A program made the position numbers and the translations under genes. Positions 3,069 through 61,123 of a stretch of 64,000 nucleotides of DNA are shown piece by piece (the first letter of the stretch is position 1; every line of letters starts with the position of its first letter). The notes below the pieces were generated by a model that ran no database searches, had not been told where the DNA came from, and was given only the letters and a program-made list of their open reading frames with translations. The stretch covers positions 186,001 through 250,000 of the forward strand of contig DASYUH010000032.1 of NCBI GenBank assembly GCA_036001465.1, written 5' to 3'. Source of the DNA: Candidatus Polarisedimenticolia bacterium. Its GTDB lineage: Bacteria; Acidobacteriota; Polarisedimenticolia; Gp22-AA2.

Positions 3069-3136
3069 CCGTCAGCACGGCTCGTCCTCGCAGGATTCGT
3101 TTCCGCCGCGCCGCCGGCGCCCGCGTTTCCCGCCAA

Positions 3137-3636: not shown

Positions 3637-3712
3637 ACTCCCTCACGATCCGCCCCGCGCAACCACAATTCGCCCTCTTTCGCCGGCGACGCCGCCCGGC
3701 CGCGGTTCCGGC

Positions 3713-7714: not shown

Positions 7715-7887
7715 CGTCGACCTCCCCCTTGCGGACCGTCTCGTTGATGGACTGGCGGTTGTCACGAATCCTTCTGATCCTTCGGTTTCGCCTCGTCCTG
7801 GTTCCGGAAAATATTTGCCGAGATCCTCGCGAAGCCTGCGGCCTTGTTCAGGCGAGCGTTGTACTATTGTCCTGATCTCACACAACG

Positions 7888-10800
7888 GTGGAGTCGAGAT
7901 TGCATCCACGCGGGCTGGTCGTCGCATTCCTGCTGCCGGCGCTCACCCTGACCGCCGGCCTGTCTCGAGGCGCGGAGGACGACTCCCTCGAGACGATGCG
8001 ACGGCTGGTGGCCGACGGCGCCTACGCGCAGGGCGAGACGCTGGCGCGCCGGTACATCGAGCAGGAGCAGCAGGCCGGACGCGGAGAGACGACGAACGTC
8101 GCGGAAGCGATGCTGGTGATGGTCGAGGCTCTCTGGAGAGGCGGCAAGGAGCGGGCCCCCGGAACGCGCGAGGCGGCCGAGCGCAGCGTCGAGCTCTGCC
8201 GCAGGATCTACGGCGTGGAGCACCCGAAATACGCCACGAGTCTCACCGCCCTCGCCATCGTGCTCAGGCGAAACGACGACGTGGAAGGAGCCAAGGCTCT
8301 TTCGTACCGCGTCCTGGCGCTCCGGGAGAAGATCTTCGGTCCCCGCAGCATCGAGGTCGCGCAGACGCTCAGCAATCTGGCCGCTCCGGAAGGCATGTCG
8401 GGGAACTTCTCCGCGGCTAAGGCGGCGCTGGAGCGCGCCTCCTCCATCTGCGAGGAGCTGGGTGCGCGGGACGAATTCTTCAGCAATGTGCTCTACAACC
8501 TCGGGTTCCTGAACGAGCAGCTCGGAGATTACGCGACCTCCACGGAGGATTTCGAGCGATCTCTCGAGATCCGCAGGCAGATCCTGCCCCCCGGCCATCC
8601 CTCGATCGCCGTCGCGCTGTTCGGCCTCGGGATGGCGCTCACCCGCCTGGGCGAGTTCGACGCGGCGCGCGCCTCCTGCGAGCAGGCGCTGGCGATGCAG
8701 GAGAAGACCCTGGGGCCGGATCACCCCGAGTTCGCCGAAAGCCTCGACCGGCTGGCAGTCGTCCTGGCGAGCACGGGACGCCCCGCGGACGCGCGTCCTC
8801 TCCAGGAGCGGGCGCTGGCGATCCTGGAACGGGCCCTCGGAAGCGACCACAGTCGAGTCTCGCAGGTGCGCGGCGATCTGGCCTCCCTGCTCGCCGGCAT
8901 GGGAGAGGGCGCGGAAGCGAAGCGGCTCATGGAGATCACCGTCGCGAACCAGGAGCGCGTGCTCGGTCCCGACCACGCCGACCTGGGACGGAGTCTGAAC
9001 CGGCTCGCCGATGTGGAATTGCAGCTCGGCGATCTCGCCGCCGCGCAGCGGCACCTGGCTCGCGCCCGGGCCATCCTCGAAGCGATCTATGGCAAGGCAC
9101 ACCCGGACGTGGCCACGAGCCTCGACGGGCTCGCCCGCCTGCGTCGCCTGCAGGGAGAGTACGCGCCCGCGGAGAGCCTGTTCCTGCAGGCCCTCGACAT
9201 CCGGCGCTCCAGGCTCGGAGCCTCGCATCCTCTGATGGCCGAGGATCTGAGCGGGCTGGCCAGGGTCCAATGGGCCCAGGGCAAAGCCCAAACCGCCTTC
9301 GAGAATTCGCTCCAGGCCGAGGCGATCCTGCGATCCCAGTTCGGCCGCGCCCTCGGCGGCCTGTCAGAGCGGGAGGCTCTGGACTACGAGAAGGTGCGCA
9401 GCTCGGGCCTCGATACGGTGCTGTCGATCCTGGCTTCGAAGCGGGCCCGCGATCTGCCGGACAACGCGGTCGAGCGCGCGTGGATGGCCGTGGTTCGATC
9501 CCGCGCCCTGGTGCTGGACCGAATGGCGAGCATGCATCGGACGGCGGGGGGACAGGACGATCCCGTGGTGGCCGCTCTGCTGCGCGATCTCGTGGCGGCG
9601 ACGCACCGGCTCGCCGCGCTCGTCGTGCGAGGTCCCGATCCCGCTCGTCCGGACCGTTATCTCCCGGAGCTGACGCGGGCCGGCGAGGAGAAGGAGGATC
9701 TCGAGAGGCGGCTCGCGGACAAGAACGCGTCGTTCAGGAGGCGCCTGGAGCAGGGCGATGCGACGTTCGCAGCGCTCAAACGATCGCTTCCGCGGACGAC
9801 GGCGCTCGTCGCCTACGTGCTGTACAAGCGGAGCGAACCGGGCAAGAACCCGCCCGCGGCCGTGCCGGCTTACCTGGCCTTCATCCTCGGGCCCAGAATC
9901 GAGCATCCGCTTTCCATCCCCATCGGCGGCGCCGCGGAGATCGATCGGCTCGTCGAGGATTGGAGACAGGTATCGACTTCGCCCTCCGCTTCCCTGGCGC
10001 TGGACAGGGAACGGCATGAAAGGGAATTGCGGGAGATCGGCGGTCGTCTGCGCTCGCGCCTGTGGGGCCCCGTGGCCAGGGCCCTGCAAGACTGCGCTCA
10101 GGTCCTCGTCGTGCCCGACGGGGCCGTCAACCTTCTCAATCTCGCGACCCTCCCGGCCGGCCCGGATCGGTTTCTCGTCGACGACGGCCCGCGATTTCAC
10201 TACCTCTCGGCGGAGCGCGATCTGCCGGACCTCGGACAGGCGCAATCGGCCCGCGGGAGCGGCATCCTCCTGGTCGGAGGCCCGGACTTCGACAGGGGGC
10301 ACGAGACGCCTGCGCCGACCGGAGTCGTCCGCTACCGGGGCGGCGCCGCGTCCTGCAGCGACTTCGGGACCATGCGATTCGATCCTCTGCCCGCTTCGAT
10401 CAAGGAGGTCGACGAGATCCGGTCGCTGCTCGCGGCAGAAGCGTCGGGCTCCAATCCGGCCATGTCGGACGTGATCGCGCTGACGGCCGCCGAAGCCAGC
10501 GAAGCGGCGGTCAAGAGCGTCGCACCCGGACACCGCATATTGCATCTCGCGACTCACGGCTTTTTCGTGGACGATCGGTGCCCTTCTTCCCTGCGCTCCG
10601 GCTCCGCCGTGGACGGGCCGCTCCTGCTCTCAGGCCTGGCGCTGGCCGGAGCCAACCGCCGACGAGAGGCATCTCCCGAATCCGAAGACGGCATTCTGAC
10701 CTCCGAGGAGATCGCGGCCCTCGACCTCGGGGGGGTCGACTGGGTCGTCCTGTCGGCGTGCGAGAGCGGCATCGGGCGTATCCAGAGCGGAGAAGGAGTG

Positions 10801-11046
10801 CTCGGGCTCCGACGCGCCTTTCAGGTCGCCGGAGTCAGGACGCTCATCACCAGCCTCTGGAAAGTCGAGGACGACGTCACCAAGGAGTGGATGCGGCATC
10901 TGTACGAGCGGCGGCTGGGCGGCCTGTCGACCTCCGAGGCCGTGCGCGACGCCAGCGTCGCAGTCCTGAACGCCCGGCGCGCGAAAGGGCTGAGCACGGA
11001 CCCCTTCTTCTGGGGCGCGTTTGTCGCTGCAGGAGACTGGCGGTGA
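7888..11046 (+). CDS. TPR-CHAT protein (caspase-like peptidase domain)
   Basis: This is a 1052-residue protein beginning with GTG and a hydrophobic signal-like segment (residues 9-28). Residues about 30-480 are tetratricopeptide repeats of the kinesin-light-chain type, with repeated A-x-x-L-x-x-R-A-L-A-I and G-P-x-H-P motifs. The C-terminal 330 residues are a CHAT domain: the His of HLATHGFF (about 890) and the Cys of VVLSACESG (about 958) form the caspase-like dyad, followed by GEGVLGLRRAFQVAG and SLWKVEDD. CHAT domains are proteases, some of them activated through TPR partners. It converges on the anti-sigma gene (13 bp apart), suggesting a link to that signalling pair. The target is unknown. 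Confidence 0.88.
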   Translation: MESRLHPRGLVVAFLLPALTLTAGLSRGAEDDSLETMRRLVADGAYAQGETLARRYIEQEQQAGRGETTNVAEAMLVMVEALWRGGKERAPGTREAAERSVELCRRIYGVEHPKYATSLTALAIVLRRNDDVEGAKALSYRVLALREKIFGPRSIEVAQTLSNLAAPEGMSGNFSAAKAALERASSICEELGARDEFFSNVLYNLGFLNEQLGDYATSTEDFERSLEIRRQILPPGHPSIAVALFGLGMALTRLGEFDAARASCEQALAMQEKTLGPDHPEFAESLDRLAVVLASTGRPADARPLQERALAILERALGSDHSRVSQVRGDLASLLAGMGEGAEAKRLMEITVANQERVLGPDHADLGRSLNRLADVELQLGDLAAAQRHLARARAILEAIYGKAHPDVATSLDGLARLRRLQGEYAPAESLFLQALDIRRSRLGASHPLMAEDLSGLARVQWAQGKAQTAFENSLQAEAILRSQFGRALGGLSEREALDYEKVRSSGLDTVLSILASKRARDLPDNAVERAWMAVVRSRALVLDRMASMHRTAGGQDDPVVAALLRDLVAATHRLAALVVRGPDPARPDRYLPELTRAGEEKEDLERRLADKNASFRRRLEQGDATFAALKRSLPRTTALVAYVLYKRSEPGKNPPAAVPAYLAFILGPRIEHPLSIPIGGAAEIDRLVEDWRQVSTSPSASLALDRERHERELREIGGRLRSRLWGPVARALQDCAQVLVVPDGAVNLLNLATLPAGPDRFLVDDGPRFHYLSAERDLPDLGQAQSARGSGILLVGGPDFDRGHETPAPTGVVRYRGGAASCSDFGTMRFDPLPASIKEVDEIRSLLAAEASGSNPAMSDVIALTAAEASEAAVKSVAPGHRILHLATHGFFVDDRCPSSLRSGSAVDGPLLLSGLALAGANRRREASPESEDGILTSEEIAALDLGGVDWVVLSACESGIGRIQSGEGVLGLRRAFQVAGVRTLITSLWKVEDDVTKEWMRHLYERRLGGLSTSEAVRDASVAVLNARRAKGLSTDPFFWGAFVAAGDWR

Positions 11047-11059
11047 CCGATGCCTTGAT

Positions 11060-11890
11060 CTATCTGGGTTCCGTCAGGACAAGGGCGGAGCGATAGGACG
11101 ATTCCTCGGGGCTTTCGGCCGGCGCGAGCCTGAATTCGTACCGACCGGGCGTCAACGAAGCGTTGGGCACGAGCAGCGTCACGAGCTCCGCGCCCTCCCC
11201 CAGGTGCCTGCGCACGTCGGCCGCGCTCATGATCCTGGACCACACCGCTCCCGCGCCCTCCCGTCGAATCTCATATCGAAACAGCCTCTCGGGCGGCGCG
11301 CTGTCCGGGATGGACGCCGGGCAGGCGACGACCAGGAACGTCCGGCCCGGATCGAGCGCATACGTCACCGACGTCTCCTCCCCCCTGAGAGCGCGCGGCA
11401 GGACGAGGAGGGGCCCGGCCGACGCTTCCGCAGGGCCAGGCGGGGTCTCCAACGACGGTCGAGATGGCCCCGGCGCTCTCCCCGCGCCGATCCATGCCGA
11501 GAGCCCGGCGCCGACCGCGAGCCCGGCCGCCGTGGCGAGAGCGATCGAGGCCCAGCGCGTAAGCGGGGCGGTCGTGTCCGCCTGCCTCCTCCACGCTCCG
11601 ACGTGGAGCGAGCAGGATGCGCAGACATCGAGGTGACGCGCCACGCCTTCCATTCCGGAAGCCTTGCCTGCCCGGGCGTACCGCCGGAGAGTCGATTCCG
11701 AGGGATGCGGCTCGAACAGGGCCTCTCCCCCCTCGCGCAACGCCCTCGCGAGCGGCATGAAGGTCTCGAGCATCTCCCGACAATCCTGACAGCCGCCGAG
11801 ATGCTCTTCGACCCTCCGGCCGGCGTCCGGTTCGAGCCGTGAAGCGGCGTAGGCCGCAAGCTCGAGCTGGATCTCCTCATGACTGCTCAT
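11060..11890 (-). CDS. Zinc-finger (zf-HC2) anti-sigma factor, membrane-anchored
   Basis: The 276-residue protein has two cysteine clusters. The first, HLGGCQDCREML, is the classic zf-HC2 anti-sigma domain (H-x3-C-x2-C), and the second, HLDVCASCSLH, repeats the pattern. A transmembrane helix follows (SIALATAAGLAVGAGLSAWIG, about residues 130-150), and then an external C-terminal domain of beta-rich character. The start at 11890 gives MSSHEE and excludes a long unlikely extension. It lies 67 bp downstream of the ECF sigma factor gene in the same direction, the usual operon order. It should hold the sigma factor at the membrane until an external signal releases it. Confidence 0.85.
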   Translation of the reverse strand: MSSHEEIQLELAAYAASRLEPDAGRRVEEHLGGCQDCREMLETFMPLARALREGGEALFEPHPSESTLRRYARAGKASGMEGVARHLDVCASCSLHVGAWRRQADTTAPLTRWASIALATAAGLAVGAGLSAWIGAGRAPGPSRPSLETPPGPAEASAGPLLVLPRALRGEETSVTYALDPGRTFLVVACPASIPDSAPPERLFRYEIRREGAGAVWSRIMSAADVRRHLGEGAELVTLLVPNASLTPGRYEFRLAPAESPEESSYRSALVLTEPR

Positions 11891-31045: not shown

Positions 31046-31106
31046 TGGAGACGGCGAGGTCAGTTCCCGCGTCCAAGATCTCGCCCCTTGTTATCAGCAA
31101 ATTGAG
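31046..31106. repeat. Degenerate ssrA-end copy/right end of segment II
   Basis: This is homologous to 19962-20025: CAGTTCCCGCGTCCAAG, then TCTCGCCCCTTGTTATCAG. It lies directly left of attachment copy 3, as its partner lies left of copy 1. Confidence 0.6.
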
Positions 31107-32298
31107 TGGTGGAGGCGGCGGGAGTCGAACCCGCGGCCAAACCTACTAAACCCCTGTTTCCGTTACGACTTGCTTTGGCACCGGTTTCGCGTTGTGCTCC
31201 TGTTGTGCTGGCGACCTTCAGGGAACGCCCAACGACCTCTGTCATCTCAACGAGCCGATCCTTCCGAGCCCGCCCATAGACGTTCATAGTCAGGTTTGCG
31301 GTCGAATGCCGCGCCAGGACCTGGGCTTCCTTTGCCGAGGCGCCGGCTTCGAGAATCAAGCTGACAAACGCCGTACGGAAGGCATGAAAATCGATCTTCC
31401 CCTCGGAGGACCACTTCGCAATGCCGGCCCACTTTAGATCTTGGTCCAGGTCACGCCCAGGATGGCTCGGAACGAAGGCAAGTGCCTCTTCCGGTCCCTT
31501 GTCCTTCACAGCCTCGTGAAGCTGCTTTACGAGCCAGCTTGGCAGGGGCTGAAACCCCGCCTTCCGGTTCTTCGTCCACGAAGCCTCGAGATGAACGCCA
31601 CACAGGGCAGGGTCGAGATTACGGACTCTGAGGGCGCGCAGCTCGCCGGCACGCAACCCGGAAGCGCACGCCAATTGATAGGCGCGACGTCGGTGCGGAG
31701 CACAGGAGCGCAGAAGGCGAGCTATCTCATCGCCGGTCATTGCCCGTCTCCTAGTCCGCGGCGACGTATCGAAAGCCGCGAGGCCCCCGAGCGGGTCACT
31801 CTCCAAGTAGCCGCGAGAAACCGACCAGTCGCAGAACGCGGCCAAGGCTTCCGCACGGTTCTGGACGGTCTTGCCGGACTTGCCGTCCGACTCCAACTCA
31901 CGAAGCGCTTTCTCTACCTCAGGCAGAGACCCCGGCAGGTCCCCGAGAGTCTCTAAACCGAGCGTGTCCTTCCACCACTTCAGATGCGCCTTGCGCATCC
32001 GCGCGTGAGTCACGCCCCAAGCATGTCCAGCGCGACCGCCCTGCGATCGACCCCAGGCCAGGTACTCTGAAATCACCCCCGCGACAGCCCTCGGGAGGTC
32101 AGAGGGCTTGGGCGCCGGCTTCCATCCATTGCGAATCGCGTCCTGCTCAGTTTGCACGTGGAGCGCGAGCTTCTCTGTACCCGAGCGACTCGTTGTTCCC
32201 AGAGCCGTTCTCCTGCGTCCATCATGGGCCGTGTACTGGAATCGAAACCGAGGATGGGGCTTCCCGTTCCTGTCCTTCGTCTGAAACACGTATGGCAT
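31060..32298 (-). CDS. Tyrosine integrase of segment III
   Basis: This 412-residue site-specific recombinase has an N-terminal arm-binding region (YTAHDGRRRTALGT), a core-binding SAM-like domain (about 70-175) and a catalytic domain. The catalytic residues are Arg216 (SGLRAGELRALR), Lys243, His305-x2-Arg308 (HAFR), His331 (LARHS) and Tyr341 (NVYGRA), so the enzyme looks complete. The last 25 residues are encoded by the attachment core and by DNA beyond it: AGSTPAAST comes from the core and TQFADNKG... from the neighbour. In the excised circle the frame would instead continue into 60776-60451. It probably integrates at the ssrA 3' end. Confidence 0.92.
   Translation of the reverse strand: MPYVFQTKDRNGKPHPRFRFQYTAHDGRRRTALGTTSRSGTEKLALHVQTEQDAIRNGWKPAPKPSDLPRAVAGVISEYLAWGRSQGGRAGHAWGVTHARMRKAHLKWWKDTLGLETLGDLPGSLPEVEKALRELESDGKSGKTVQNRAEALAAFCDWSVSRGYLESDPLGGLAAFDTSPRTRRRAMTGDEIARLLRSCAPHRRRAYQLACASGLRAGELRALRVRNLDPALCGVHLEASWTKNRKAGFQPLPSWLVKQLHEAVKDKGPEEALAFVPSHPGRDLDQDLKWAGIAKWSSEGKIDFHAFRTAFVSLILEAGASAKEAQVLARHSTANLTMNVYGRARKDRLVEMTEVVGRSLKVASTTGAQRETGAKASRNGNRGLVGLAAGSTPAASTTQFADNKGRDLGRGN
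31107..31135. repeat. Attachment-site copy 3, left end of segment III (attL)
   Basis: These 29 bases are identical to the ssrA 3' end at 60777-60805. The integrase reading frame runs through it (residues 388-397), so the core is coding. With copy 4 it bounds a 29.7 kb element with the integrase at one end, the standard layout for a site-specific insertion. Confidence 0.85.
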
Positions 32299-40961: not shown

Positions 40962-43900
40962 CTAGGCCTGTCGCAGCTCGACAGCAACCTGCCCCCGTGC
41001 GGAAAACGCCAGCTTGAATGTCACCCGCATGTCTTTGACCAGCAACAATCGACCGAATTTGGAGCCGTGACAGAAAATATCCGGATACCCAGGAGCCCTG
41101 AGAAAAGCATATCCTGGACCAACTTTCACGACTGTGCCTTCCAACCTCCAGGGATTTTGCCGTTCCTTCGGATCACCCGGCGCGAACTCCACGCGCGTGG
41201 ACTCATCGAAGCTAAAGCCCGCGGTTTTCGCGGCCGCGAAGATCTGATTTGCTTCTGAGAAGTCACCATTAACGAACAGCATCCCACCTAGGGTCGCTAC
41301 GTATCGTGGGTCTCTCTTTCCGTAGAGTTCCCCCAACCTAATCACTGCGATCGCCTTTGAATAGGGATCACCGAGATCCACCAAACATTGCGCATACTCA
41401 ACCCCAGCCCGGAACTCGTTCGGATCGCTCTCAACCGCACCCCGCAGTATACTTGCTGCCTTCTCCAGCTCACCGCCTCGCCGATAGGCTCTTCCCAATA
41501 AATACCGTGCGATCGGACTTCCCGGGCTCGCAAGGACAGCCTTCTCAAGCGCAGCAATAGTCTCCGGTCGCTTACCCAACCATTTTTCGATCTCTGACGA
41601 CATGATCCACAGACCGGAACGTTCTCTCGCCTGTCTCAACCCTGTACTAATAATCCCCTCAGCTCTGCTGACGTATTCAGACTGTTCTTCTCCTTGAGTG
41701 CGTTTAGCCCATCCCAGGTATAGGCCCGCCAAACCCTGATAGGAATACGCATCCTTGGGATCGGCGCTGAGCGCTTGCCGGTAGGCCTCTTCGCTTTGCG
41801 CCATCCGCTTTCGCCCTATCTCGGCACTCGCTGCGCTTAACGCTAGCTGTTGTAATACCGAACCCTTCGTGTGATACAGGACTCGTACGCCGGGCGCCAC
41901 ATCGATGGCGTGTTCAATTTGCGCGAGCGCAAGCTCTAATTTGTCCATCCTGAGGAGCATTCGCGCATAGTGCTGCAACACATACGGGTTTTCTGGATTC
42001 TTTCTGCAAGCAGCCTCGAAGAATCTAATCCGTCCGTCAAGCGACGCGATGCTATCCACTTGTCTGTCGCTTCGGATAAACGACTCGAACGCGCGCACAT
42101 CCGTGTAATATGTAAGGTTCAGCTTGTTCAACACCGATAAGATGATTGTCTCTTTGTCCGAATCAGCTACGCACCGGTTCCAGACGATCTCAGCGATAAC
42201 TTGATGACGCGTACGAGCCCCATAGACACCACTCGACTCGTCAAGGCAGTCCCAATGAATCACACCCTCAGTTGCATCCTTTGTCGCCGCATGCAGTGAT
42301 GCGATATCCACGTCGAGAACCCCGCTGAGAACGCCGTCCCTTAGATACGTTCTAACGGACGAGCCACAGCTTACAGCTGCGTACAGTCGACGGGCCGACT
42401 CATTCTCTAGGCTTCTATACTCGTCTTCAATTATCGCATCGAATCCCCGATTCTCCGTGGCTTCGCGCATTACGACCAAGAGCTGTTTACCGTGTTTCTC
42501 CTTTATCGCCGCAACCTGGAGGTCGTGATCCAACGGCTCCAGTGCCTTAAGAGCGTCCTCGCGTCCCAAGAACTCTAATAGCCGCTCGATCTCAGCATCA
42601 CTGAGTTCTTTAACTGAATACTCTTTCGCGCGAAGCCTGCTGTGGACCTGTCGCCACTCGTTCAATCTTTCCCCCAATACTAAGAGGGCCGGCCTTCCTA
42701 ACTCGCGAAGTCGCTGCAGAACCGTCCTGATTTCAGTGCTGTGGTCGGCGGCGTTATCAATGAAATAGAAGGTCCTGGCCTGATCGAGGGAGCCAGCGTA
42801 TTCCACATCCCCTTCTAACATGGGGGTGCCCCTTCGATGCATGAAGACCGCACCTGCTCTGTCAGCCGCCAATTTGGCAGCCAGCGTCATGAGAACTGTT
42901 GAGACTCCGTATCCTGCTGAGCCTAGTAGAATTATGCTCCCCGCGCTCGGGGTGGTAGCAGTTGCAAAGTCTATTAGATCATCGTAAACCGACTCTTCGA
43001 CATCTCTCTCGAACGTAAGATGCCTCGCGACGAGTCCCCAATTTGGCAAATCTCCCGATAGAAATGCTTTGATGTTTGGGGCCTCTTGAAACTGGGCCTG
43101 ATTGACGTAGGTCCACGAATTCAATAGCCGCATCGTCGCCGCGGGGTTCGCGTCGAAGGCCGACACCAGGTCTGATGGGACGCTGGACTTGAGCGCGTCA
43201 AGCCGGCTCGGATCAATCTTCAGCGCTTTCAGGGTGTCGCTCGCCCCTTGCGCGAAATCCGCAAGGGAGCTTGCGATAGTCTCAATTCCATGCGATCGGA
43301 GGATTTCCTCGTCGAGTGGATCGGTGTCGAGTGCAACTCGGTACGAGGGTGGGGGTGATGATGGTGAAAACTCTGAACGGAGTTCAGAGTGGACCATTCG
43401 CCAATCTAGGTCCTCGTGTGCGTAGCCGACGTAGAGGATCGTTGACGTAGCAAACTCTTTTCTAAGCGTTTCAAAAAGCATTCGGCGTGGTTCGCGAAAC
43501 GCTACGTAGTCCTCTTCCGTGATTAGGATCCGCGCTTTTTCCGTTCCGAACAGAGTTCCGTGTAGGTGATAGACGGGAACCTGGAAGCGAGGATCGTAGG
43601 GAACGAAAGCGGCAGTGCTGGAGATTGTTACTGGGGTCTGTTGTGGTTCGCCGCTTAGCTCGTAGGTTCTCTGGATCAGAGAGTCATAGTTTGTCGTGAA
43701 AACCGCCTTCCACCGCAAGGAAAATAGCCACTTCAGATGATCGTCAGGCTCCAATCCGGTCAAACGTTTTCCTAGATATGCCTCTAATTCTCTTCGTCCA
43801 CGTCGGAGCTCTACGATCTGCGCGATTTTGGGCAGGCTGGGTGTTTCAGTCGCCTCGATGCCAAACTGTATCGCAAGGTCCTTCGCAAGCTGCCTTCCTA

Positions 43901-44018
43901 ACGGAGCCGGCTCCCCGTTCTTGTCCCTCGCACACGCGCCAACCCCAGAACCCACAAAGAGGACGCACTGCCCGGATTCGAGGGCGTTTCGTAGCCCTAG
44001 GGGAACCAACTCATCCAT
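40962..44018 (-). CDS. SIR2-STAND-TPR protein, probable antiviral NADase
   Basis: This is a 1018-residue protein. Residues 1-250 are a SIR2-like NAD-consuming domain: FVGSGVG, AVFTTNYDSLI (Asn110 region) and VYHLHGT with the catalytic-type His153. Residues about 340-600 resemble a STAND NTPase. Its P-loop position reads GSAGYGVST (366-374), so the usual Walker A Lys is Val372. About residues 640-940 are TPR repeats (YVLQHYARMLLRMDKLELALAQIEHAI; YLLGRAYRRGGELEKAASIL). The last 60 residues (KVGPGYAFLRAPGYPDIFCHGS) look like a cold-shock/OB fold. SIR2-STAND proteins such as Avs5 abort phage infection by depleting NAD. The start at 44018 removes a weak extension. The gene is AT-richer than its neighbours, suggesting separate acquisition. 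Confidence 0.8.
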   Translation of the reverse strand: MDELVPLGLRNALESGQCVLFVGSGVGACARDKNGEPAPLGRQLAKDLAIQFGIEATETPSLPKIAQIVELRRGRRELEAYLGKRLTGLEPDDHLKWLFSLRWKAVFTTNYDSLIQRTYELSGEPQQTPVTISSTAAFVPYDPRFQVPVYHLHGTLFGTEKARILITEEDYVAFREPRRMLFETLRKEFATSTILYVGYAHEDLDWRMVHSELRSEFSPSSPPPSYRVALDTDPLDEEILRSHGIETIASSLADFAQGASDTLKALKIDPSRLDALKSSVPSDLVSAFDANPAATMRLLNSWTYVNQAQFQEAPNIKAFLSGDLPNWGLVARHLTFERDVEESVYDDLIDFATATTPSAGSIILLGSAGYGVSTVLMTLAAKLAADRAGAVFMHRRGTPMLEGDVEYAGSLDQARTFYFIDNAADHSTEIRTVLQRLRELGRPALLVLGERLNEWRQVHSRLRAKEYSVKELSDAEIERLLEFLGREDALKALEPLDHDLQVAAIKEKHGKQLLVVMREATENRGFDAIIEDEYRSLENESARRLYAAVSCGSSVRTYLRDGVLSGVLDVDIASLHAATKDATEGVIHWDCLDESSGVYGARTRHQVIAEIVWNRCVADSDKETIILSVLNKLNLTYYTDVRAFESFIRSDRQVDSIASLDGRIRFFEAACRKNPENPYVLQHYARMLLRMDKLELALAQIEHAIDVAPGVRVLYHTKGSVLQQLALSAASAEIGRKRMAQSEEAYRQALSADPKDAYSYQGLAGLYLGWAKRTQGEEQSEYVSRAEGIISTGLRQARERSGLWIMSSEIEKWLGKRPETIAALEKAVLASPGSPIARYLLGRAYRRGGELEKAASILRGAVESDPNEFRAGVEYAQCLVDLGDPYSKAIAVIRLGELYGKRDPRYVATLGGMLFVNGDFSEANQIFAAAKTAGFSFDESTRVEFAPGDPKERQNPWRLEGTVVKVGPGYAFLRAPGYPDIFCHGSKFGRLLLVKDMRVTFKLAFSARGQVAVELRQA

Positions 44019-44180
44019 CGATGGGTTCCTCAACAACCAGTGACTGAGATGCACACAGCGTCGAATGGCCGAAGGCTACCACACCTAGGCAGGTGCTGAT
44101 CGGTTGCGGTCGGGAGGTGGCGGCCAACATGTGGTCCTCGACTTGCGGGCAATGGTGGCCAGGGGTGGGCATGTCCTACC

Positions 44181-48000: not shown

Positions 48001-48261
48001 AGCGCCGAACCTACCCCCCGAGTACCACACCGCTACCCAGTTACCCGCGCCATCCGTCGCGACTTGAGGAAGGTAGTCGATGGCGCTGTCTGTCGCGGCG
48101 TCGGTGTTCAAAGGCTGCGGTGGGGTTTGGTCCCCCCCGAAGTAGCCAAGCAAGTTGCTTTCGGCAGAGAACGCCGCCCAAACGACCAAAACCAGCCATA
48201 GATCCCTCAGCTTCACCGGCGCACCGGACCGCGTTGCAAAGCGTCGCTGCCTTTTGCTCAT
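45013..48261 (-). CDS. Secreted BNR-repeat/SGNH-hydrolase protein with thrombospondin type 3 repeats
   Basis: This 1082-residue exported protein starts after AGGAAGG with a signal helix (LRDLWLVLVVWAAFSAESNLLG). Residues about 55-460 are seven near-identical 58-residue repeats (SRSTNNGATWTPPQALNTDAATD, TTDGAGNWVAVWYS), a sialidase-type BNR propeller. Next is an SGNH/GDSL esterase: YAALGDSYSSGEG (Ser block I), GGNDVGF and the SFHPNSFGQNQYA His block. Then come calcium-binding TSP3 repeats (DADGDGVGDACDACPNDPEND and similar) and a C-terminal module (AVPAEVSGLLFSSATALAW ... GFWYLVRGRNALGNGTYG) shared with the chromosomal 18342-19865 protein. It probably acts on an extracellular ester polymer. 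Confidence 0.88.
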   Translation of the reverse strand: MSKRQRRFATRSGAPVKLRDLWLVLVVWAAFSAESNLLGYFGGDQTPPQPLNTDAATDSAIDYLPQVATDGAGNWVAVWYSGGRFGADADIIVSRSTNNGATWTPPQALNTDAATDNAVDAEPQVTTDGAGNWMAVWSSRGRFGGDADIIVSRSTNNGATWTPPQALNTDAATESNDDYSPQVATDGAGNWVAVWFGYRFGTTVDIIVSRSTNNGAFWTPAQALNTDAATDSAFDYFPQVTTDGAGNWVAVWYSAGRFGTDADIIMSRSTNNGATWTPPQTLNTDAATDSAVDSEPQVTTDGAGNWVAVWSSRGGFGGDADIIVSRSTNNGATWTPPQALNTDAATDPEYGDDRFPQVTTDGAGNWVTVWDSWGRFGSSMDIIVSRSTNNGATWTPPQALNTDAATDPYDDSYPKVTTDGAGNWMAVWYSSGRFGPDFDVLMSRSGILYAALGDSYSSGEGVPGYLPGTANKGVNECHRSTRAYGFQFKFPGVALGDEEFLACSGARTYNVAHGGISPDSAPGEPPQLDRVYDADPNTYIVNENTDMVTITIGGNDVGFDEVLTLCGTTRRCDSSSFVPFAPADTRPLNKILADRISLITAPRVAIIYEEIKQFAPDAAVFVLDYPHLFAAGDCLQPEGLLFDSAERTFLNNAADNLNVTLQSVAAAQGVHFIDVTTRFSGHEVCAPLEWLNGWNPVWIPNHSGSFHPNSFGQNQYAKRLLSYIQNRLATPGWPILPTGLPANPNPMGTGARVAAGSLTVLPSLGDLRVEPAVAPPCDSHGFYVPGQAVRLLGKGYGAGAGLIIRLVADDGTYEVDFATATADGSGSVDSVTSIPSGSPTTGDALLEVLGLGADGGALLLLSRIGLGTSFSSDADGDTIHDVCDNCPTTSNVAQSDADGDGVGDACDACPNDPENDLDHDGLCANVDPCPWDAQNDIDGDGYCESQDNCPSVHNPDQVDSDNDGAGDACDSAPQDPTLIAVPAEVSGLLFSSATALAWGSATTQAGIATVHDVIRGDLYSLPVAGSTPTCVAAGISTVTNDDPTLPQSGQGFWYLVRGRNALGNGTYGYQSDGTERLSSACP
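47048..48120. repeat. Seven tandem ~174 bp coding repeats
   Basis: The string GCGGCGTCGGTGTTCAGAG or a close variant starts at 47048, 47228, 47402, 47575, 47747, 47921 and 48095 (spacings 172-180). The units encode the BNR repeats. High DNA identity points to recent expansion. Confidence 0.85.
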
Positions 48262-48386
48262 CGTGCCTTCCTTTATTGCCTGGGAGGGAATTTTGTTCTA
48301 GTTGGACCAATGATCCCCCAATCACTGCTGGGACGTCAAGAATCTTTGGTAGCCACCTACCTAGTTCTGCTCCACGCGGTCAGCCA

Positions 48387-48716
48387 GAAGGAGCTCTCAT
48401 TACGGCATTGCGCGGCTCTTCTGGGGCGACGCCCCTCTTCCGGACGATGGGCGAGAAGCGGCAGCTCACCGCCGAGCGGATCACCCGGAACGACATCCTC
48501 CGGATGGTCAAGCACCGGGCCTTGGCCGCGGGGCTACCCGACACGACTTCCTGCCATACCTTCCGAGCAACCGGAATCACCGCCTTCCTCGAGAACGGCG
48601 GCACCATCGAGAACGCGCAGTTGATCGCCGCCCATGAGTCCCGCAGGACGACCGAGCTTTACGACCGGAGCTCGGACGAGATCACCCTGGACGAGGTCGA
48701 GCGGATCGCGATCTGA
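48387..48716 (+). pseudogene. C-terminal fragment of a tyrosine recombinase
   Basis: The frame reads EGALITALRGSSGATPLFRTMGEKRQL ... ILRMVKHRALAAGLPDTTSCHTFRATGITAFLENGG ... AQLIAAHESRRTTELYDRSSDEIT. The H-x-x-R box (HTFR), the second His (AAHES) and the Tyr nucleophile (LYDR) are present, but the core-binding domain and the first catalytic Arg are missing and there is no start with a ribosome site. It is the broken end of an integrase placed immediately beside the secreted BNR gene, in divergent orientation. It probably marks the edge of an older cargo insertion. The following 332 bases (48717-49048) show no gene. Confidence 0.7.
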
Positions 48717-49048: not shown

Positions 49049-50161
49049 TCAGATAAACCGCCACCAAGTGGCTCTCTCGGCATCACTGATCGTCATCTGT
49101 GTCGTCCCGTTACCCCTACCCTCCTCAAGGCTCGCCATAATCTGGTTGCCCTGCGGGGACCCCATATCGTACGTTTCATACATGATACCTTCTGGCGTTC
49201 GCTCAAATCGGGCCACCGGCTGGGTGAACTCTCTCATCTCCGGGATTTCCATCTTCATCGTATTCCGACCGCCTCTGGCGGAGGCTTCTATGATGGCGTG
49301 TCCTTGTCCGGAGTGTCTGCTCCGAACCTCCGCGGCGCCTTTGAAAAACGTGTCCACAACCCGGAAAGGTATCTGTGTCTGCGTCGGGCGGTCGGTTACA
49401 TGCGCTTTCCTCAGCCGCATCAGAAGAACGGTCCCCGATGGAACAGTGATTTCTGCCGCTGGCCGGGCAGGCCGCCGGGCTCGCTCACGTGCGGCAACTG
49501 CGCGCCCGGCTTCTACCGCTGCGCGAGCCGGGGCCCCAAATCGCCGTGACCCGAACAACGGGGGGCCTTCGCGGCCAGGCCCTCGTTCTCTCTCCCGCTG
49601 GATTTGAGCTCGTACCACTGCTTCGTCTGGCACATACCCTTCCCTTCGCAATCGCGCAAGAAACTCCTGATCCAGCCGTGCCGCGAGTCTACCGGCCGTG
49701 TCCTTCCAGGACGATAGTGCGTCGAGCGTCTGGGCCACGACTGGCTCGTCCACGCCCATGTCTACCTGCAAGCCCGCCTCCACATTCACGTACAGGCCAT
49801 ACTCAGTGAGGTTGTTCGACCCCACGATCAAACGTGCTTCCTCCTCATTTCGGAAGAGGTACAGCTTCGGATGGAAAATGCTGCCTGCTTCGTTGTGGTA
49901 GACGAAGGTCTCGGACCGTCCATACTGCTCCAGAGCCAGCAGAGCCTCTAGACCTTCTCGCGTCGTGTTGCGGAGATCAATCCCTACGATGAACGATGCC
50001 TCGCCGCCCTGCCTCAAGAAATTCGCAAGCGGTTCGGTAAGATACGCCATCCCAGAGGCGCGCACCCAAGCTACAGCTATGTCGATCTTGTCCCAGAACG
50101 GATCTACGTGACGGATCAGCTCGTTTCCAAAGCGGACTGCTAACGGCTGATTGTAGAGCAA
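49049..50161 (-). CDS. PLD-fold nuclease of a restriction-like operon
   Basis: This is a 370-residue protein. Residues 1-190 are a phospholipase-D-like nuclease domain: IDIAVAWVRASGMAYL, IVGIDLRNTTREGLEAL and the single HKD-type motif FHPKLYLFRNEEEARLIVGSNNLTEYGLYVNVEAG (His, Lys and GSNN). A Arg/Ala-rich linker leads to a C-terminal domain of about 140 residues that I do not recognise. One PLD motif per chain and this length resemble dimeric restriction nucleases such as BfiI or the NgoFVII family. It lies 48 bp downstream of the second methyltransferase gene on the same strand, so it is likely the nuclease of a restriction-modification-like set. Confidence 0.75.
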   Translation of the reverse strand: MLYNQPLAVRFGNELIRHVDPFWDKIDIAVAWVRASGMAYLTEPLANFLRQGGEASFIVGIDLRNTTREGLEALLALEQYGRSETFVYHNEAGSIFHPKLYLFRNEEEARLIVGSNNLTEYGLYVNVEAGLQVDMGVDEPVVAQTLDALSSWKDTAGRLAARLDQEFLARLRREGYVPDEAVVRAQIQRERERGPGREGPPLFGSRRFGAPARAAVEAGRAVAARERARRPARPAAEITVPSGTVLLMRLRKAHVTDRPTQTQIPFRVVDTFFKGAAEVRSRHSGQGHAIIEASARGGRNTMKMEIPEMREFTQPVARFERTPEGIMYETYDMGSPQGNQIMASLEEGRGNGTTQMTISDAERATWWRFI

Positions 50162-50209
50162 GGCGTCTCTCTCTTATTGCGGCCGCGTTCTTGTCGGGAC
50201 GGTGACGAA

Positions 50210-51100
50210 CTAGAGCGCATCTCCGTTCACCACACGGTCCATCCCCGCGACAAGGTCGCGGTACACCTTTACTTTTGGACCCTTCGTTTTCGACAATGCC
50301 GGTTTGGCGAAAATCAGAACGTACTCGTGCACGTTCTTGAACAGGAAATTTGGGGGATAAGGATAGCTCCCGAATATCGGGCGCTGCGCTCCATAGGAAC
50401 CCCACTTTCCGCCAGTACCGTTCTTCGACCAGATAATTTCATTGACCATCACAAATCCGATCTCACGCAGAAGGACCGCGAAGTCGGTCGCCAAGGGAAA
50501 CGTCAGCAGGCCATGATCCGTATGCTGGTTCACATTGGCGGTGACAACGCACATCTTTCGACCCGGCATCAGAACACGAAAACATTCCTCGAAAACCGGA
50601 CGTACGCTCTCGAGAAAAGAGCTGTAGCTCTCGATCTTGCCGAGGTTACTCTGTGAATGACCGTAATCCGCCTTATTCCAGTACGGCGGGCTGGTGACGA
50701 CCAGGGCGATGCTGTTGTCTCGGACGAAGCCAAGCTTCCGGCTGTCACCGCAGACAGCTTCCAGCGCCTCGAACGCCGGCGAATGGCCGTTGCTGAGATT
50801 CTTGCATTCCTTCTTGATGGTGCGCACGTACTTCGCGTTCTGGTCCACGCACAGAGCGCGCCGTCCCAACGGGATCACCGCCCGCGCCGTCGTGCCCGTT
50901 CCGGCAAACGGATCAAGTACCGTTTCACCGTAGAAGCTGAAGAGCTTCGCCAAGCGAAGAGGGATTTCCTCGGGGAACACCGCCGGATGGTCATCCCGGC
51001 TCGTGTTTGCGATCATCCAGACGGTCTTGGTGTATTCCCTCCACTCGTCCTTTGTGACCTTGCTCTTTTCCTTAATAGACTTGGCTACGCTTTGCGTCAT
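50210..51100 (-). CDS. DNA methyltransferase (DPPY/SPPY type)
   Basis: This is a 296-residue amino-methyltransferase. Motif I is VLDPFAGTGTTARAV (S-adenosylmethionine binding), and motif IV is VTSPPYWNKADYG (catalytic). Other family blocks include FEECFRVLMPGRKMCVVTANVNQ and FVMVNEIIWSKNGTGGKWGSYG. SPPY favours N4-cytosine methylation and N6-adenine is possible. Motif I precedes motif IV. Its start overlaps the stop of the larger methyltransferase by four bases (ATGA), a strong sign of co-translation. The target sequence cannot be predicted. With its partner it would protect DNA from the PLD nuclease. Confidence 0.85.
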   Translation of the reverse strand: MTQSVAKSIKEKSKVTKDEWREYTKTVWMIANTSRDDHPAVFPEEIPLRLAKLFSFYGETVLDPFAGTGTTARAVIPLGRRALCVDQNAKYVRTIKKECKNLSNGHSPAFEALEAVCGDSRKLGFVRDNSIALVVTSPPYWNKADYGHSQSNLGKIESYSSFLESVRPVFEECFRVLMPGRKMCVVTANVNQHTDHGLLTFPLATDFAVLLREIGFVMVNEIIWSKNGTGGKWGSYGAQRPIFGSYPYPPNFLFKNVHEYVLIFAKPALSKTKGPKVKVYRDLVAGMDRVVNGDAL

Positions 51101-53247
51101 ACCTCTTCATCCCCCTCGGCATCCGTCATCGCTTGGTCTCTCAATTCGGCCGCCACGGTTCGCGCTGTAAATTGCTGAAGCTCGTCCACGAATGCCTTCT
51201 CCAAGCCCGCAATGACCGCGAGCGTCTCATCAGCCTGGCGCCTAATGTCGTCATGACCATTCGGCGAATACGCGAGGGACGTCCGCCCCCGGTTCAGGCT
51301 AATGACGGGCTTCGTTCTTATCGCAGACCAAAGCGCTGCGCCGCTTTCCGAAAGAGACCGCGCCACCTCCTTGCGAAACGCTTCAACACCAAACGGAAAA
51401 TCAGTGATGAAGCGCCTCGACACATGAAACCCATCGCCGTGCGTGTGCCACCACCAGTACGCGAGATGACTAGAGAGTATGGCGAACACGGCGAGAGCGT
51501 CCCTCTCCGAAGCGCACCTGACCGCGTGCAGGGCATTCTCCGAAAGTGTCTCCTTACCAGAAATGTGGTCTCTCCGCGGCTTCAGGAATACGTTGAGAAA
51601 ATTGTAGGCAGTAGGCCCCACGAAGACGGTGCGCTTGTCCGCATCTGGTGTCCCAGCCAGACCCACTCGCTCGATCACCTGCGCCACTTGCTCCAGACGC
51701 TCCCACCGATTACCAAGCGCTTGCATTGCCCTTGCTTGAAGAGCCCCTTCGATTTTCGGGATCCCAGCCCGTATGTCACCTTCCACCGTCGTAAAGGTCA
51801 GACTGTGGAACATCGCCGCCCGGCTGTCGCCGCGCCATTTTCTCAGTGGACCCGTGGATACAACTGGGCACGTGTCCGAAGGCGTCCTCGACCACAGCAC
51901 GATGGTGTTACGAGTTTTTACGTCTTCGCCAAAGAGCGCGTGCGGCTCCCTATCGAAGAACGCGAACCGCCATCGCCCGCGCGTTTTCGCAATCAACTCT
52001 CGCGCGGTAGTAAATTGCGGCCCAACATTGCAGGCCAACGAAAGCGGGACTACGAGCGCCCCTGAGCAGCTCTCCCGATCGCCCAGACGTATCATCTGCT
52101 CCACGAACGCCAAGAAGATTTCAGCGCCAGGCTGTGGCTTGGCAGCGATTGTTTCGTATGTGCGGGCGAGTTCCGATAAGTCCCGTCGCAGCCCCAGATC
52201 CGCGTATGGCGGATTCCCCAGGATGACGGTTGGCCTGCCCTTCAACGTGGGGAACAAGCTGGCAAGTGGAGTGCGGATACCAGCCCCTCCGCTTTCCCCT
52301 AGGACGTTCCCCTCGGCATCGATGCGCAGCGTATCAATGCAGGTAAGATTCTCGCGCAACTGACGCCACACCTTCCCCGGCGATGTCCCGTTCCCTTCCG
52401 AGCAAGGCCAGCAATCTGAGAATAGAACGAAAGCTGCCGCATCGAGCGGCCACGGGTCGATGTCAGCTCCGAAAAGACACTCTGACGCCAGCCGAAGCAC
52501 GCCCTTCTCGGGATGGCGTCGCCTCATTTCCTCCAGCGCCGCCCGAAGAAAGACGCCGGTCCCGCAGGCAGGGTCGAATATTCTTGGAAGAATCCCGGGG
52601 GCGGCTTCAGCCAAGCAAGCCGAAGCCATGTATTCCGCGACATCGGCGGGCGTATAAAAGACGCCCGCCTCGCGCTTGCGCTTTCGTGCCAAGTGCGTCG
52701 CAGGATCGCGCCTCACGCTGAGTCTGCTGCCAGGTCCGTGAGGATCGAGGATGTATGGCAACAACTGAAGGTACGCCGAAGCATTTGCCTCGCCCCGCAA
52801 GGCAGCTGCAGCCTTATCGATTCCATGCTCCGAGGCCAGCCCCGTCAACCTCTCCCGCGTAGAATCTCCCCAAAACCACTGCTCAGCTTCCGTCAGTGAG
52901 GCCGAGGTGGCAATCCCTTTCACCGCGACTCCGGCCACCCACATCGCGACAATCGCCCACGCGGTCATCTCTGCATCTGTCCGCCCTGAATCTCTCTCAA
53001 GCCGCCCCCGCAGCGGCGACAGAAGAGCCGCTCGGGCTTCTGAACAATCCGTTCGCTCAAGCGACTCTGAGAGGGCGGCGACGGCCTCCCGAATCGGCCT
53101 CCCGTAGGTTTCGACGGTCGTTGAAAGAACGTGCCCCCGCCGCGGAATCGCCAATCGTAACACCTCGCACTGGACCGGATCCCACACAGGGCGCAGCCTT
53201 TCAAGCACGCCTACTTGCTCCCGGGTTCCAACCGTCGCTGCCGTCAA
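51097..53247 (-). CDS. Large Eco57I-like N6-adenine DNA methyltransferase
   Basis: This is a 716-residue protein. Residues about 195-215 are REAGVFYTPADVAEYM, followed by motif I IFDPACGTGVFLRAALEEM and a helper GADIDPWPLDAAAFVL. Motif IV is VILGNPPYADLG. The downstream part (FFDREPHALFGEDVKTRNTIVLWSRT; FDREP being typical) matches the Eco57I-like class in which methylation and target recognition share one chain; no nuclease motif is seen. The N-terminal 190 residues are helical and may contact partners. It is the first methyltransferase of the leftward operon, starting 36 bp after the ribbon-helix-helix gene. Confidence 0.85.
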   Translation of the reverse strand: MTAATVGTREQVGVLERLRPVWDPVQCEVLRLAIPRRGHVLSTTVETYGRPIREAVAALSESLERTDCSEARAALLSPLRGRLERDSGRTDAEMTAWAIVAMWVAGVAVKGIATSASLTEAEQWFWGDSTRERLTGLASEHGIDKAAAALRGEANASAYLQLLPYILDPHGPGSRLSVRRDPATHLARKRKREAGVFYTPADVAEYMASACLAEAAPGILPRIFDPACGTGVFLRAALEEMRRRHPEKGVLRLASECLFGADIDPWPLDAAAFVLFSDCWPCSEGNGTSPGKVWRQLRENLTCIDTLRIDAEGNVLGESGGAGIRTPLASLFPTLKGRPTVILGNPPYADLGLRRDLSELARTYETIAAKPQPGAEIFLAFVEQMIRLGDRESCSGALVVPLSLACNVGPQFTTARELIAKTRGRWRFAFFDREPHALFGEDVKTRNTIVLWSRTPSDTCPVVSTGPLRKWRGDSRAAMFHSLTFTTVEGDIRAGIPKIEGALQARAMQALGNRWERLEQVAQVIERVGLAGTPDADKRTVFVGPTAYNFLNVFLKPRRDHISGKETLSENALHAVRCASERDALAVFAILSSHLAYWWWHTHGDGFHVSRRFITDFPFGVEAFRKEVARSLSESGAALWSAIRTKPVISLNRGRTSLAYSPNGHDDIRRQADETLAVIAGLEKAFVDELQQFTARTVAAELRDQAMTDAEGDEEV

Positions 53248-53283
53248 TGGCAGCCTCTTTTCGGTTTCGTGGACGGTCGCACG

Positions 53284-53481
53284 CTAGTCTCCCCCCCGGG
53301 ACAGCGGCGCCCGATCCGCGACGTACTTCTCCGCTGCGTCACGCACAACCCAAGCGATCGAAACCTTCTTCTCTCGCGCGATTTCTTCAAGCGTGCGGTA
53401 GAGCTCAGGCGGGAAACTCACTGAGGCCCGCAGGGCGGTTGGGGGGTTCATCCTCCGTCTCTTCTCTCTTTTCACAGGCAC
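53284..53481 (-). CDS. Ribbon-helix-helix (CopG-like) regulator
   Basis: This is a 65-residue basic protein. The RHH core is ALRASVSFPPELYRTLEEIAREKKVSIAWVVRDAAEKYVAD, a beta strand followed by two helices as in CopG/Arc dimers. It starts at GTG 53481 after CGGAGG, or alternatively at ATG 53451. As first gene of the leftward operon it probably represses its own promoter; control block copy C lies 190 bp upstream in the right orientation. Such a regulator would delay nuclease expression until DNA is methylated. Confidence 0.75.
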   Translation of the reverse strand: MPVKREKRRRMNPPTALRASVSFPPELYRTLEEIAREKKVSIAWVVRDAAEKYVADRAPLSRGGD

Positions 53482-53561
53482 CTAGTGGGCCTCCGAATCA
53501 TTTTCTGCACCACCTTACACCAACTTGGTGCTCCGTGGCTAGCAGGAAAATGAGACTCTCG

Positions 53562-53880
53562 CTTCCCGGTCAGACGAGTCCACCTCGCACGTTCCACCCG
53601 TATGAAAATCGCAAGTCGGGAAGCTGCGCTTCCCCTCCACCCACCAGGGCGCCAGCCTCACGGGAGAGAGGTCGCCGTCTCGTTCTTCGCATCGTACCAG
53701 TGGCACCCCCCGCTATAAAGGGTCGCCCTGCCCGCTGCGAGACCGACCTTGCGCGCCGGCGGTCGCGACTGTGCCTTCGGCACAGCAAGCGTCGTCGCCC
53801 CTGCGAGGCTCCGATCGTCGCGATCGCGTCGCCGGTCTCTTGCTTCCCGGTCAGTCGAATCCACCGCGCACGTTCCACCC
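53562..53880. repeat. 38-bp direct repeats flanking an inverted control block
   Basis: Copies at 53562-53599 and 53843-53880 agree at 35 of 38 positions (CTTCCCGGTCAG ... CGCACGTTCCACCC). The second runs straight into TTGACA of control block B. Between them lie control block C (53671-53722) and a UUCG-type hairpin (53769-53785). No gene is supported in 53482-53973. Confidence 0.65.
53671..53722 (-). promoter_or_regulatory. Control block copy C, facing the RHH-methyltransferase operon
   Basis: On the minus strand it reads CCCTTTATAGCGGGGGGTGCC, then ACTGG ... GAGACGGCGACC, aligned with copies A and B. The -35-like TTGACA is TTTATA here. Confidence 0.4.
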
Positions 53881-55213: not shown

Positions 55214-55912
55214 TCACAAGGTCCCCTGGCCGCTCTCTGGATAGAGCAGGTCCATTCGGATTCTCACGACCGCAGGGTTAACGTCGAACACCTCAGCGAG
55301 ATCCCGCACCGCATCACCTCGCAGTGTCTCCGGCAACGACATCAGGCCCAGTCGTCCCTTCGGCGCTACAAACTTTTCGATCGCCATCGCAACGAGCTTC
55401 TTCGGCAGCAGGAGGGCCGACATCGCGCGGTTTGCCTGGAACTCGTGCCACTCGTATCGAGGCTTCGCGCCGTTCCCGTCTTCGAGCTCACCTTCCCGGC
55501 ACATCACGCGTGGCGCCCCAGTGTCGTTGAAGTCTCCGAACAACAGCGGCTCATCAATCCCCAGAGCAAACAGATGCCCGTGTAACAGGATGTGCCCGGC
55601 CTCGTGGGCCATGGTCGTCCTGGCACGGCGAGATCCAACGAGGGAACCATCTTCCAGTGCCCTCGAGATTATTACCTGCTCTGCGCCGCGTTCCCCGAAG
55701 AGAGTCACACCAAGCACCCTGGAACCCAGGTCCTCATACTCCGGCGTGATGTTGAACCGCTTCTCTATGAACCAATCCACTCGTATGGGCTTTGGTGACG
55801 ATGGCATCAGCCCGACGCTTTCCAGTTCCGTCGAGGTGATTCTCTCGAACTGCACCTCCTTGTAATAAGGTCGCTCTGGAAAGCGCCCGCCGGAAGCGCG
55901 ATAGTTCCTCAC
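55214..55912 (-). CDS. ImmA/IrrE-type metallopeptidase
   Basis: This is a 232-residue protein. The zinc-protease helix is TMAHEAGHILLHGHLF (HExxH), preceded by strands typical of the ImmA/IrrE family (ITPEYEDLGSRVLGVTLF; EQVIISRAL) and followed by EFQANRAMSALLLPKKLV, the third-ligand region. It starts at GTG, overlapping the stop of the XRE gene by three to four bases. In ICEs and phages such pairs act as a switch: the protease cleaves the XRE repressor after a signal such as DNA damage. This pair probably controls excision or transfer genes of segment III. Confidence 0.85.
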   Translation of the reverse strand: MRNYRASGGRFPERPYYKEVQFERITSTELESVGLMPSSPKPIRVDWFIEKRFNITPEYEDLGSRVLGVTLFGERGAEQVIISRALEDGSLVGSRRARTTMAHEAGHILLHGHLFALGIDEPLLFGDFNDTGAPRVMCREGELEDGNGAKPRYEWHEFQANRAMSALLLPKKLVAMAIEKFVAPKGRLGLMSLPETLRGDAVRDLAEVFDVNPAVVRIRMDLLYPESGQGTL

Positions 55913-56268
55913 GAACCCCCGCCCCTCTTCCTCGACGCCAACTGCTTGAGTAGTTTGGCGAGCTCGTCGCCGCTCACGTCTTGATCAACTACGCGCCGCA
56001 GCGCGGCCGCGAGCTTTGGATCTCGCTCGCCACGCCGCTTCAACTCCTCGACAGGTGGTCGCGGATCGAGAGTCCGAAGCTCCTCGACAGTCACCTCCAG
56101 AACCTGCGCCATTTTCTCCATGATCGTCTCCGACGGGTACCTGCGCCCCAACTCAATATCCGAGAGGTAAGGGGCCGTGATACCGCCGAGCCGTTGGGCA
56201 AACTCTCGCAGCGACAGCTCCTTCTCCTGTCGCAGCTCCCGAATCCGCTGCCCGAAGGTCTTCGTCAC
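55909..56268 (-). CDS. XRE-family repressor paired with ImmA
   Basis: This is a 119-residue protein with an N-terminal lambda-repressor-type helix-turn-helix (FGQRIRELRQEKELSLREFAQRLGGITAPYLSDIELGRRYPSETIMEKMAQVLEV). The charged C-terminal part includes PPVEELKRRGERDPKLAAALRRVV and DELAKLLKQLASRKRGG. The helix-turn-helix is complete. It is translationally coupled to the protease gene. The likely role is repression of the element's mobility functions, relieved by ImmA cleavage. Confidence 0.85.
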   Translation of the reverse strand: MTKTFGQRIRELRQEKELSLREFAQRLGGITAPYLSDIELGRRYPSETIMEKMAQVLEVTVEELRTLDPRPPVEELKRRGERDPKLAAALRRVVDQDVSGDELAKLLKQLASRKRGGGS

Positions 56269-60776: not shown

Positions 60777-60805
60777 TGGTGGAGGCGGCGGGAGTCGAAC
60801 CCGCG
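60777..60805. repeat. Attachment-site copy 4, right end of segment III inside ssrA (attR)
   Basis: This is the 3'-terminal 29 bases of ssrA, up to and including the encoded CCA. The identical repeats at 31107 and 25032 and the near-identical one at 20026 show the crossover lies within the T-arm/acceptor region. Confidence 0.85.
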
Positions 60806-61123
60806 TCCGAAACAGATTGGCGTGGGACGTCTACGTGCGTAGCCACCTCGGCTGCTCTCGCCGGCCGCCACCCGAGGTGGCAAAGAAGCGGCCAGCCAGC
60901 CCGGTCATTTTCGCCTCAGGGCTTCGGGCGGACCCCGGGGCTATCCCGCTGTGCGTCGCCCATCCAGGCCCCCGCGGGAAAAAGGACCCGGTGGACGGGC
61001 TGCGTTAAGCAGCCAGCGCTAACGGTGAGTTGGCGCTTGCTTTTGGTTCCACCTGTTTAGCGAGGAGTGGGCCTCGGCACGCTTTCCCAGCCTCAACAGT
61101 CCCGTCGAAACCGTTTCGCCCCC
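60777..61123 (-). ncRNA. ssrA: Transfer-messenger RNA (tmRNA)
   Basis: The 5' end is GGGGGCGAAACGGTTTCGAC (61123 leftwards) and the 3' end is GGACGCGGGTTCGACTCCCG, then CCGCCTCCACCA. The seven-base acceptor arms GGGGGCG and CGCCTCC pair with one G-U. The tag frame runs from GCA (61040) to TAA (61005): ASANSPLALAA, with the hallmark LAA end. The length is 347 nt. It rescues stalled ribosomes and marks the unfinished proteins for degradation. The CCA is encoded. Confidence 0.95.

Follow-up and report, generated by a model that had tools for sequence, protein, structure and literature searches.

A mobile operon of two DNA methyltransferases and a predicted PLD-superfamily endonuclease, probably a BfiI-like restriction-modification system, in an Acidobacteriota genome

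We studied a four-gene operon in a 64,000-nucleotide stretch of DNA from a Candidatus Polarisedimenticolia bacterium (hereafter the window; positions refer to it unless another locus is named). The four minus-strand ORFs at 49049-53481 were confirmed with the same coordinates, spacing and motifs as in the initial annotation: a ribbon-helix-helix (RHH) leader, two DNA methyltransferases (M1 and M2) and a predicted nuclease (R). All four run leftward and are tightly packed, with a 36-bp gap between the RHH gene and M1, a 4-bp ATGA overlap between M1 and M2, and a 48-bp gap between M2 and R. A helicase gene, sought within the operon, was not found, in agreement with the earlier claim. The features of the locus are collected in Table 1.

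Table 1. Features of the operon, its island and one related locus (positions in the window, except for the last row)
Feature	Position	Strand	Remarks
Tyrosine integrase, left island end	31060..32298	-	Phage_integrase 7.1e-12
Left attachment repeat, 29 bp	31107..31135		Perfect copy of tmRNA 3' end
R, predicted PLD-superfamily restriction endonuclease with C-terminal B3-like domain, 370 aa	49049..50161	-	TTG start; PLDc_2; closest match BfiI, in sequence as well as fold
C-terminal B3-like domain of R (likely), residues 241-370	49052..49441	-	LlaJI.R1 N-terminal domain match
R nuclease domain, residues 1-175	49637..50161	-	Aligned with PLD domains of SauUSI, BfiI and Nuc
Catalytic stretch of R, H97-x-K99 ... 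N117 ... E128	49778..49873	-	Invariant or nearly so in alignment of relatives
M2, short circularly permuted N6_N4_Mtase methyltransferase, 296 aa	50210..51100	-	ATG start; N6_N4_Mtase 1e-36
M1, predicted gamma-type N6-adenine DNA methyltransferase, 716 aa	51097..53247	-	TTG start; N6_Mtase 2.3e-6, Eco57I 5e-4
RHH leader, CopG-type, 65 aa	53284..53481	-	GTG start; RHH_1 8.9e-7; candidate operon repressor
13-bp palindrome CACCAAGTTGGTG, possible operator	53518..53530		37-49 bp upstream of RHH start
Right attachment repeat	60777..60805		3' end of tmRNA gene (60777-61123, minus strand)
M1-M2 with solo domain replacing the PLD nuclease	2649-9351 (L113)		Paenarthrobacter plasmid pB

The operon is carried on a 29.7-kb integrative island (31107-60805) located in a tmRNA gene, with a GC content of 59.8% as compared with 67.5% outside. 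Genes for a Replic_Relax protein, a TraD-like coupling protein, a primase, an RPA-type initiator, RadC and a SIR2-STAND-TPR protein were found on the island. The last is a 1030-aa protein (40962-44054, minus strand) with SIR2, nSTAND5 and TPR parts, a candidate NADase-type defence gene whose SIR2 part matches ThsA (1.5e-17). A pair at 55214-56268 (minus strand), formed by an XRE repressor and an ImmA/IrrE-like metallopeptidase with weak CapH/CapP matches, probably serves as the switch of the island itself. The segment 45013-48716, located between the operon and a serine recombinase gene, carries an integrase remnant (48120-48716) and the gene for a 1082-aa protein in which BNR repeats, a GDSL lipase domain and thrombospondin-3 domains were matched. 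Relatives of the island primase and TraD-like genes also surround a divergent system in another genome (L119, see below).

The initial annotation held that the two methyltransferases are of different types, which their motifs and family matches bear out. M1 presented the motifs DPACGTG and NPPY (the latter at 52204-52215) and matched the N6_Mtase, MmeI and Eco57I models. In its predicted model (pTM 0.78), a helical domain at the N-terminus precedes the methyltransferase core, and a target-recognition-like region lies at the C-terminus; no nuclease domain was seen. The model resembles CamA (Z 23.1) and M.TaqI (about 21), whose target-recognition part is similar to the C-terminal region. We read M1 as an N6-adenine methyltransferase of the M.TaqI/CamA kind. 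In M2, HPAVFP/DPFAGTG comes first and SPPYW later (beginning at 50681-50692), and the match to the N6_N4_Mtase model consists of two stretches in inverted order, so that M2 is a short circular permutant of the usual arrangement. Judging from SPPYW and family membership, its product is probably N4-methylcytosine. M2 was the most conserved component, with 63-85% identity across the loci described below where it lies beside M1, whereas M1 relatives were 28-61% identical across all loci. An M2 64% identical to that of the window also occurs in a genome of the same phylum (L120, 8162-9094, minus strand) with neither M1 nor a PLD gene nearby. Since it is the most conserved part and is found there by itself, M2 probably recognises its own site unaided.

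R matched the PLDc_2 family at 5.7e-5, below the curated cut-off, and NgoFVII weakly; a single HxK was confirmed, consistent with the one HKD-like motif annotated before. The earlier comparison with BfiI stands. Sequence searches of the PDB placed BfiI (2c1l) first, both with R itself (phmmer, E 0.05) and with a profile of its family (E 3e-4), and it was also the best Foldseek match of the predicted model (E 1.4e-9). In a pairwise alignment with 2c1l, residues H97, K99, N117 and E128 of R were in register with H105, K107, N125 and E136, the catalytic residues of BfiI (PMC4081073). Structure alignment of the model with BfiI by VIA-align 2 extended over residues 6 to 370 (Z 13.6), with an rmsd of 15.9 A that we read as a different domain arrangement. 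The C-terminal domain, regarded as new in the initial annotation, is probably a B3-like fold as in BfiI, NgoAVII and LlaJI: over 108 residues it aligned at 3.1 A (Z 8.0) with the N-terminal domain of LlaJI.R1, a B3 domain (PMC7680126), and a new fold was set aside because the fold search favoured B3 (LlaJI.R1, BfiI and R.NgoAVII). A sequence profile of this domain found nothing convincing in the PDB, and no sequence match to B3. The B3-like assignment is thus likely but not proven, as confidence in the R model is moderate (mean pLDDT 70, pTM 0.50).

The same alignments raise the question of whether R needs an ATPase partner encoded elsewhere, as in NgoAVII and CglI, in which case the set would be incomplete. 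R aligned with R.NgoAVII (Z 9.9, rmsd 12.9) over a span that includes the C-terminal domain, R.NgoAVII is unable to cut without its N-protein (PMC4267653), and the PLD domain of R was closest to that of the ATP-dependent SauUSI (Z 16.0). Nevertheless, a family-model search that found its positive control in C. glutamicum detected no Z1 ATPase (PF10593) in the whole genome, no helicase recurs beside any relative, and the methyltransferases here are not of the C5-cytosine class found in NgoAVII and CglI. Membership in that group was rejected on the lack of both Z1 ATPase and recurring helicase, and we regard a missing ATPase partner as quite improbable.

A genome-neighbourhood comparison, proposed earlier as a check on the set, showed that M1-M2-R recurs well beyond chance in eleven loci from several phyla, the window included. 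Ten further loci carried an R relative with at least 43% identity, and in all ten M1 and then M2 lay directly upstream in the same order. They comprise an IMG/VR contig (L002; R 71% identical, full-length), the Salipiger profundus plasmid pTPRO3 (L003; 57%) and eight loci from a species-genome scan (L007-L014; 43-73%) in Acidobacteria, Alphaproteobacteria and Chloroflexi. M1 and M2 were fused into a single protein of 985-986 aa in Salipiger and in Ruegeria (L011); the annotated start of the Salipiger fusion omits the first 153 residues. Co-occurrence of all four families was found in part: M1-M2-R was present in every relative and the RHH gene in six or seven. No additional gene, helicases included, recurred around most loci, which gives no indication of a helicase or any other partner. 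For the pairs with unsaturated dS, dN/dS was 0.04-0.11 for M1, M2 and R, values that point to strong purifying selection on the operon. That the genes are chance neighbours or a decaying remnant without function is highly implausible: two relatives look damaged (M1 of L007 and the PLD gene of L014 are frameshifted in their assemblies), but the window ORFs are intact, dN/dS is low and the order is conserved in all eleven loci, and this reading is refuted in the main because the set recurs.

Within its own phylum the M1-M2-R set appears to be rare: in a sample of 396 genomes, a close M2 was found in two others, accompanied by M1 in one of them. No R relatives were found in phage genome records; a scan of viral contigs with M1 as query returned only the contig already known, and with M2 mostly generic methyltransferases. 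An M1-M2 pair was also observed on a phage-like contig (L034, 5452-8610) whose end falls inside M2, and whose neighbours, from our reading of the ORFs, would be tail-like and amidase-like genes. The Salipiger plasmid carries in addition a GmrSD-N (DUF262) gene and an AAA_15 ATPase gene (L003, 3157-6888, minus strand), possibly another defence locus.

The nuclease end of the system varies. In L119, from the same phylum, a PLD protein 35% identical to R in the nuclease part comes after M1 (35% identity) and M2 (66%). A profile search against shuffles detected no sequence relationship between its C-terminal domain and the one in the window R; the 28% identity given by a multiple alignment failed this search and was discarded as an artefact. 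On a plasmid of Paenarthrobacter ureafaciens, M1-M2 is immediately followed by an ORF for the L119-type domain by itself (35% identity, E 2e-31); a search with the L119 protein detected no PLD domain on this plasmid. This solo ORF is clearly related to the L119 domain, and its relationship to the C-terminal domain of the window R was unsupported. Divergently upstream of this M1-M2 set lie an AAA_5 ATPase gene, of the family that contains McrB, and a gene for a 281-aa protein that matched no family. Three arrangements were seen: PLD with the B3-like domain (window), PLD with a C-terminal domain unrelated in sequence (L119), and the latter domain solo with AAA_5 (Paenarthrobacter). They would fit, tentatively, a fixed M1-M2 modification chassis that takes different restriction effectors, one methylation mark serving several cutting machines. 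In L010, two genes convergent with the system (9234-11179, minus strand) encode a 369-aa protein and a 279-aa protein, the latter without family match; the former, its N-terminal part unassigned, lies beside the nuclease and ends in a window-type C-terminal domain (profile E 7e-38). This pair may be a second effector that recognises the same site in DNA.

These variants bear on whether the PLD protein belongs to some other kind of defence, as a modification-dependent or abortive nuclease or a DrmC-like accessory, the methyltransferases serving another purpose. The PLD-less Paenarthrobacter relative with its McrB-like neighbour would agree with this, as would the weak matches of R to the DrmC, MkoB and ZacB models. 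The DrmC score, however, was 20.6 against a cut-off of 133, no DrmB (NF038324) was detected by family-model search in the whole genome, and R resembles BfiI over its whole length, so that we consider this alternative unlikely.

The leader belongs to the RHH rather than the helix-turn-helix proteins according to its family match. An RHH ORF preceded M1 in L002, L003, L007, L008, L010 and L011, with a weak fragment in L009, and none was found upstream of M1 in L012, L013 and L014; being present in six or seven of the ten relatives, the gene is common but not obligatory. The palindrome upstream of the leader (Table 1) occurs only once in the window, as compared with 0.05 occurrences expected. No conserved RHH operator was found upstream of seven loci, nor any site like this palindrome near the relatives, and a scan for sigma-70 promoters gave matches at chance level only. 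Note that the long gap upstream of the operon also holds a 44-bp direct repeat (53556-53599 and 53837-53880, 91% identical, 281 bp apart). The RHH proteins Omega and PaaR are strict repressors that head toxin-antitoxin operons, while the C proteins of restriction-modification systems are helix-turn-helix proteins (PMC3874152). The position of the leader before an antidote and a poison corresponds to that of Omega and PaaR. An RHH-based timing control, akin to the transcriptional delay suggested at the outset, is plausible.

In eleven loci and in one order, then, methyltransferase genes are coupled to an endonuclease gene. This, with the BfiI-like R, upholds the restriction-modification reading: we assign a probability of roughly 80% to a mobile Type II system of BfiI-like architecture, probably Type IIS-like, in which M1 and M2 each modify one strand of one asymmetric site. 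M1 (N6-adenine) and M2 (probably N4-cytosine) would protect that site, and R would bind its unmethylated form through the B3-like domain and cut by means of one active site located where its PLD domains dimerise. We infer restriction itself, with cutting outside the recognition site and independent of ATP. The RHH protein most likely represses the promoter of its own operon, and the order M1-M2-R would let protection precede cutting. Among close members, conservation of the R C-terminal domain and of the M1 target-recognition region was roughly equal to that of the catalytic parts, an indication of one shared site; that M1, M2 and R share it is not certain, since M2 is far more conserved than M1 or R and was once found alone.

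On the restriction-modification reading, a widespread mobile group would be added to the few studied PLD restriction endonucleases, a class that cuts DNA without metal ions; here the nuclease is accompanied by one adenine methyltransferase and one that is probably specific for N4 of cytosine. Given such a pair, a methylome could reveal the asymmetric site directly. Exchange of nucleases around an unchanged modification part could be studied in the L119 and Paenarthrobacter variants, the former with its swapped C-terminal domain and the latter PLD-less. Repression by the RHH protein, if it occurs, would represent a second solution, beside the helix-turn-helix C proteins, to the timing problem in a new host.

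Among known systems, the closest are BfiI and BmrI (Type IIS, ACTGGG), which share with the operon a PLD nuclease with one HxK per monomer and H, K, N and E in register, two methyltransferases, no ATPase and, on the likely assignment for R, a C-terminal B3-like domain. The operon differs in its RHH leader, in the very low identity of R to BfiI, and in its methyltransferases: those of BfiI are reportedly two N4-cytosine enzymes of the same type, whereas here an NPPY gamma-type enzyme, of the N6-adenine type, stands beside a permuted SPPY enzyme. NgoAVII and CglI have the PLD-B3 endonuclease architecture that is likely for R, but with the Z1 ATPase and a C5-cytosine methyltransferase in place of the two methyltransferases of other classes found here. 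LlaJI, which also has two methyltransferases, besides a B3-AAA protein (R1) and R2, is alike in the B3-like domain that would act as site reader; it differs in that the nuclease here is of the PLD kind and the operon has no McrB-type motor; the related Paenarthrobacter pair, unlike the window operon, does adjoin an AAA_5 gene. DISARM likewise combines a DNA methyltransferase with a PLD protein (DrmC), but DrmB is absent, no drmA was seen near the operon and R falls far below the DrmC cut-off, so membership was rejected, as the initial annotation had anticipated. Restriction-modification systems under C-protein control have a helix-turn-helix controller in place of RHH_1. The Type II system MhoVII of Mycoplasma hominis (PMC12898733) also has two methyltransferases of distinct classes, acting on the two strands of one asymmetric site and joined in one fused M1-M2 protein, with the difference that both make 6mA. 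In the searchable literature, a scope outside which REBASE and most subscription papers lie, no published description of the M1-M2-PLD/B3 combination was found; more than 40 putative PLD enzymes are in REBASE (PMC4081073). The arrangement, first put forward as possibly novel, is new as a variant and not as a kind, since PLD-B3 endonucleases with separate methyltransferases are already known in BfiI, BmrI, NgoAVII and CglI.
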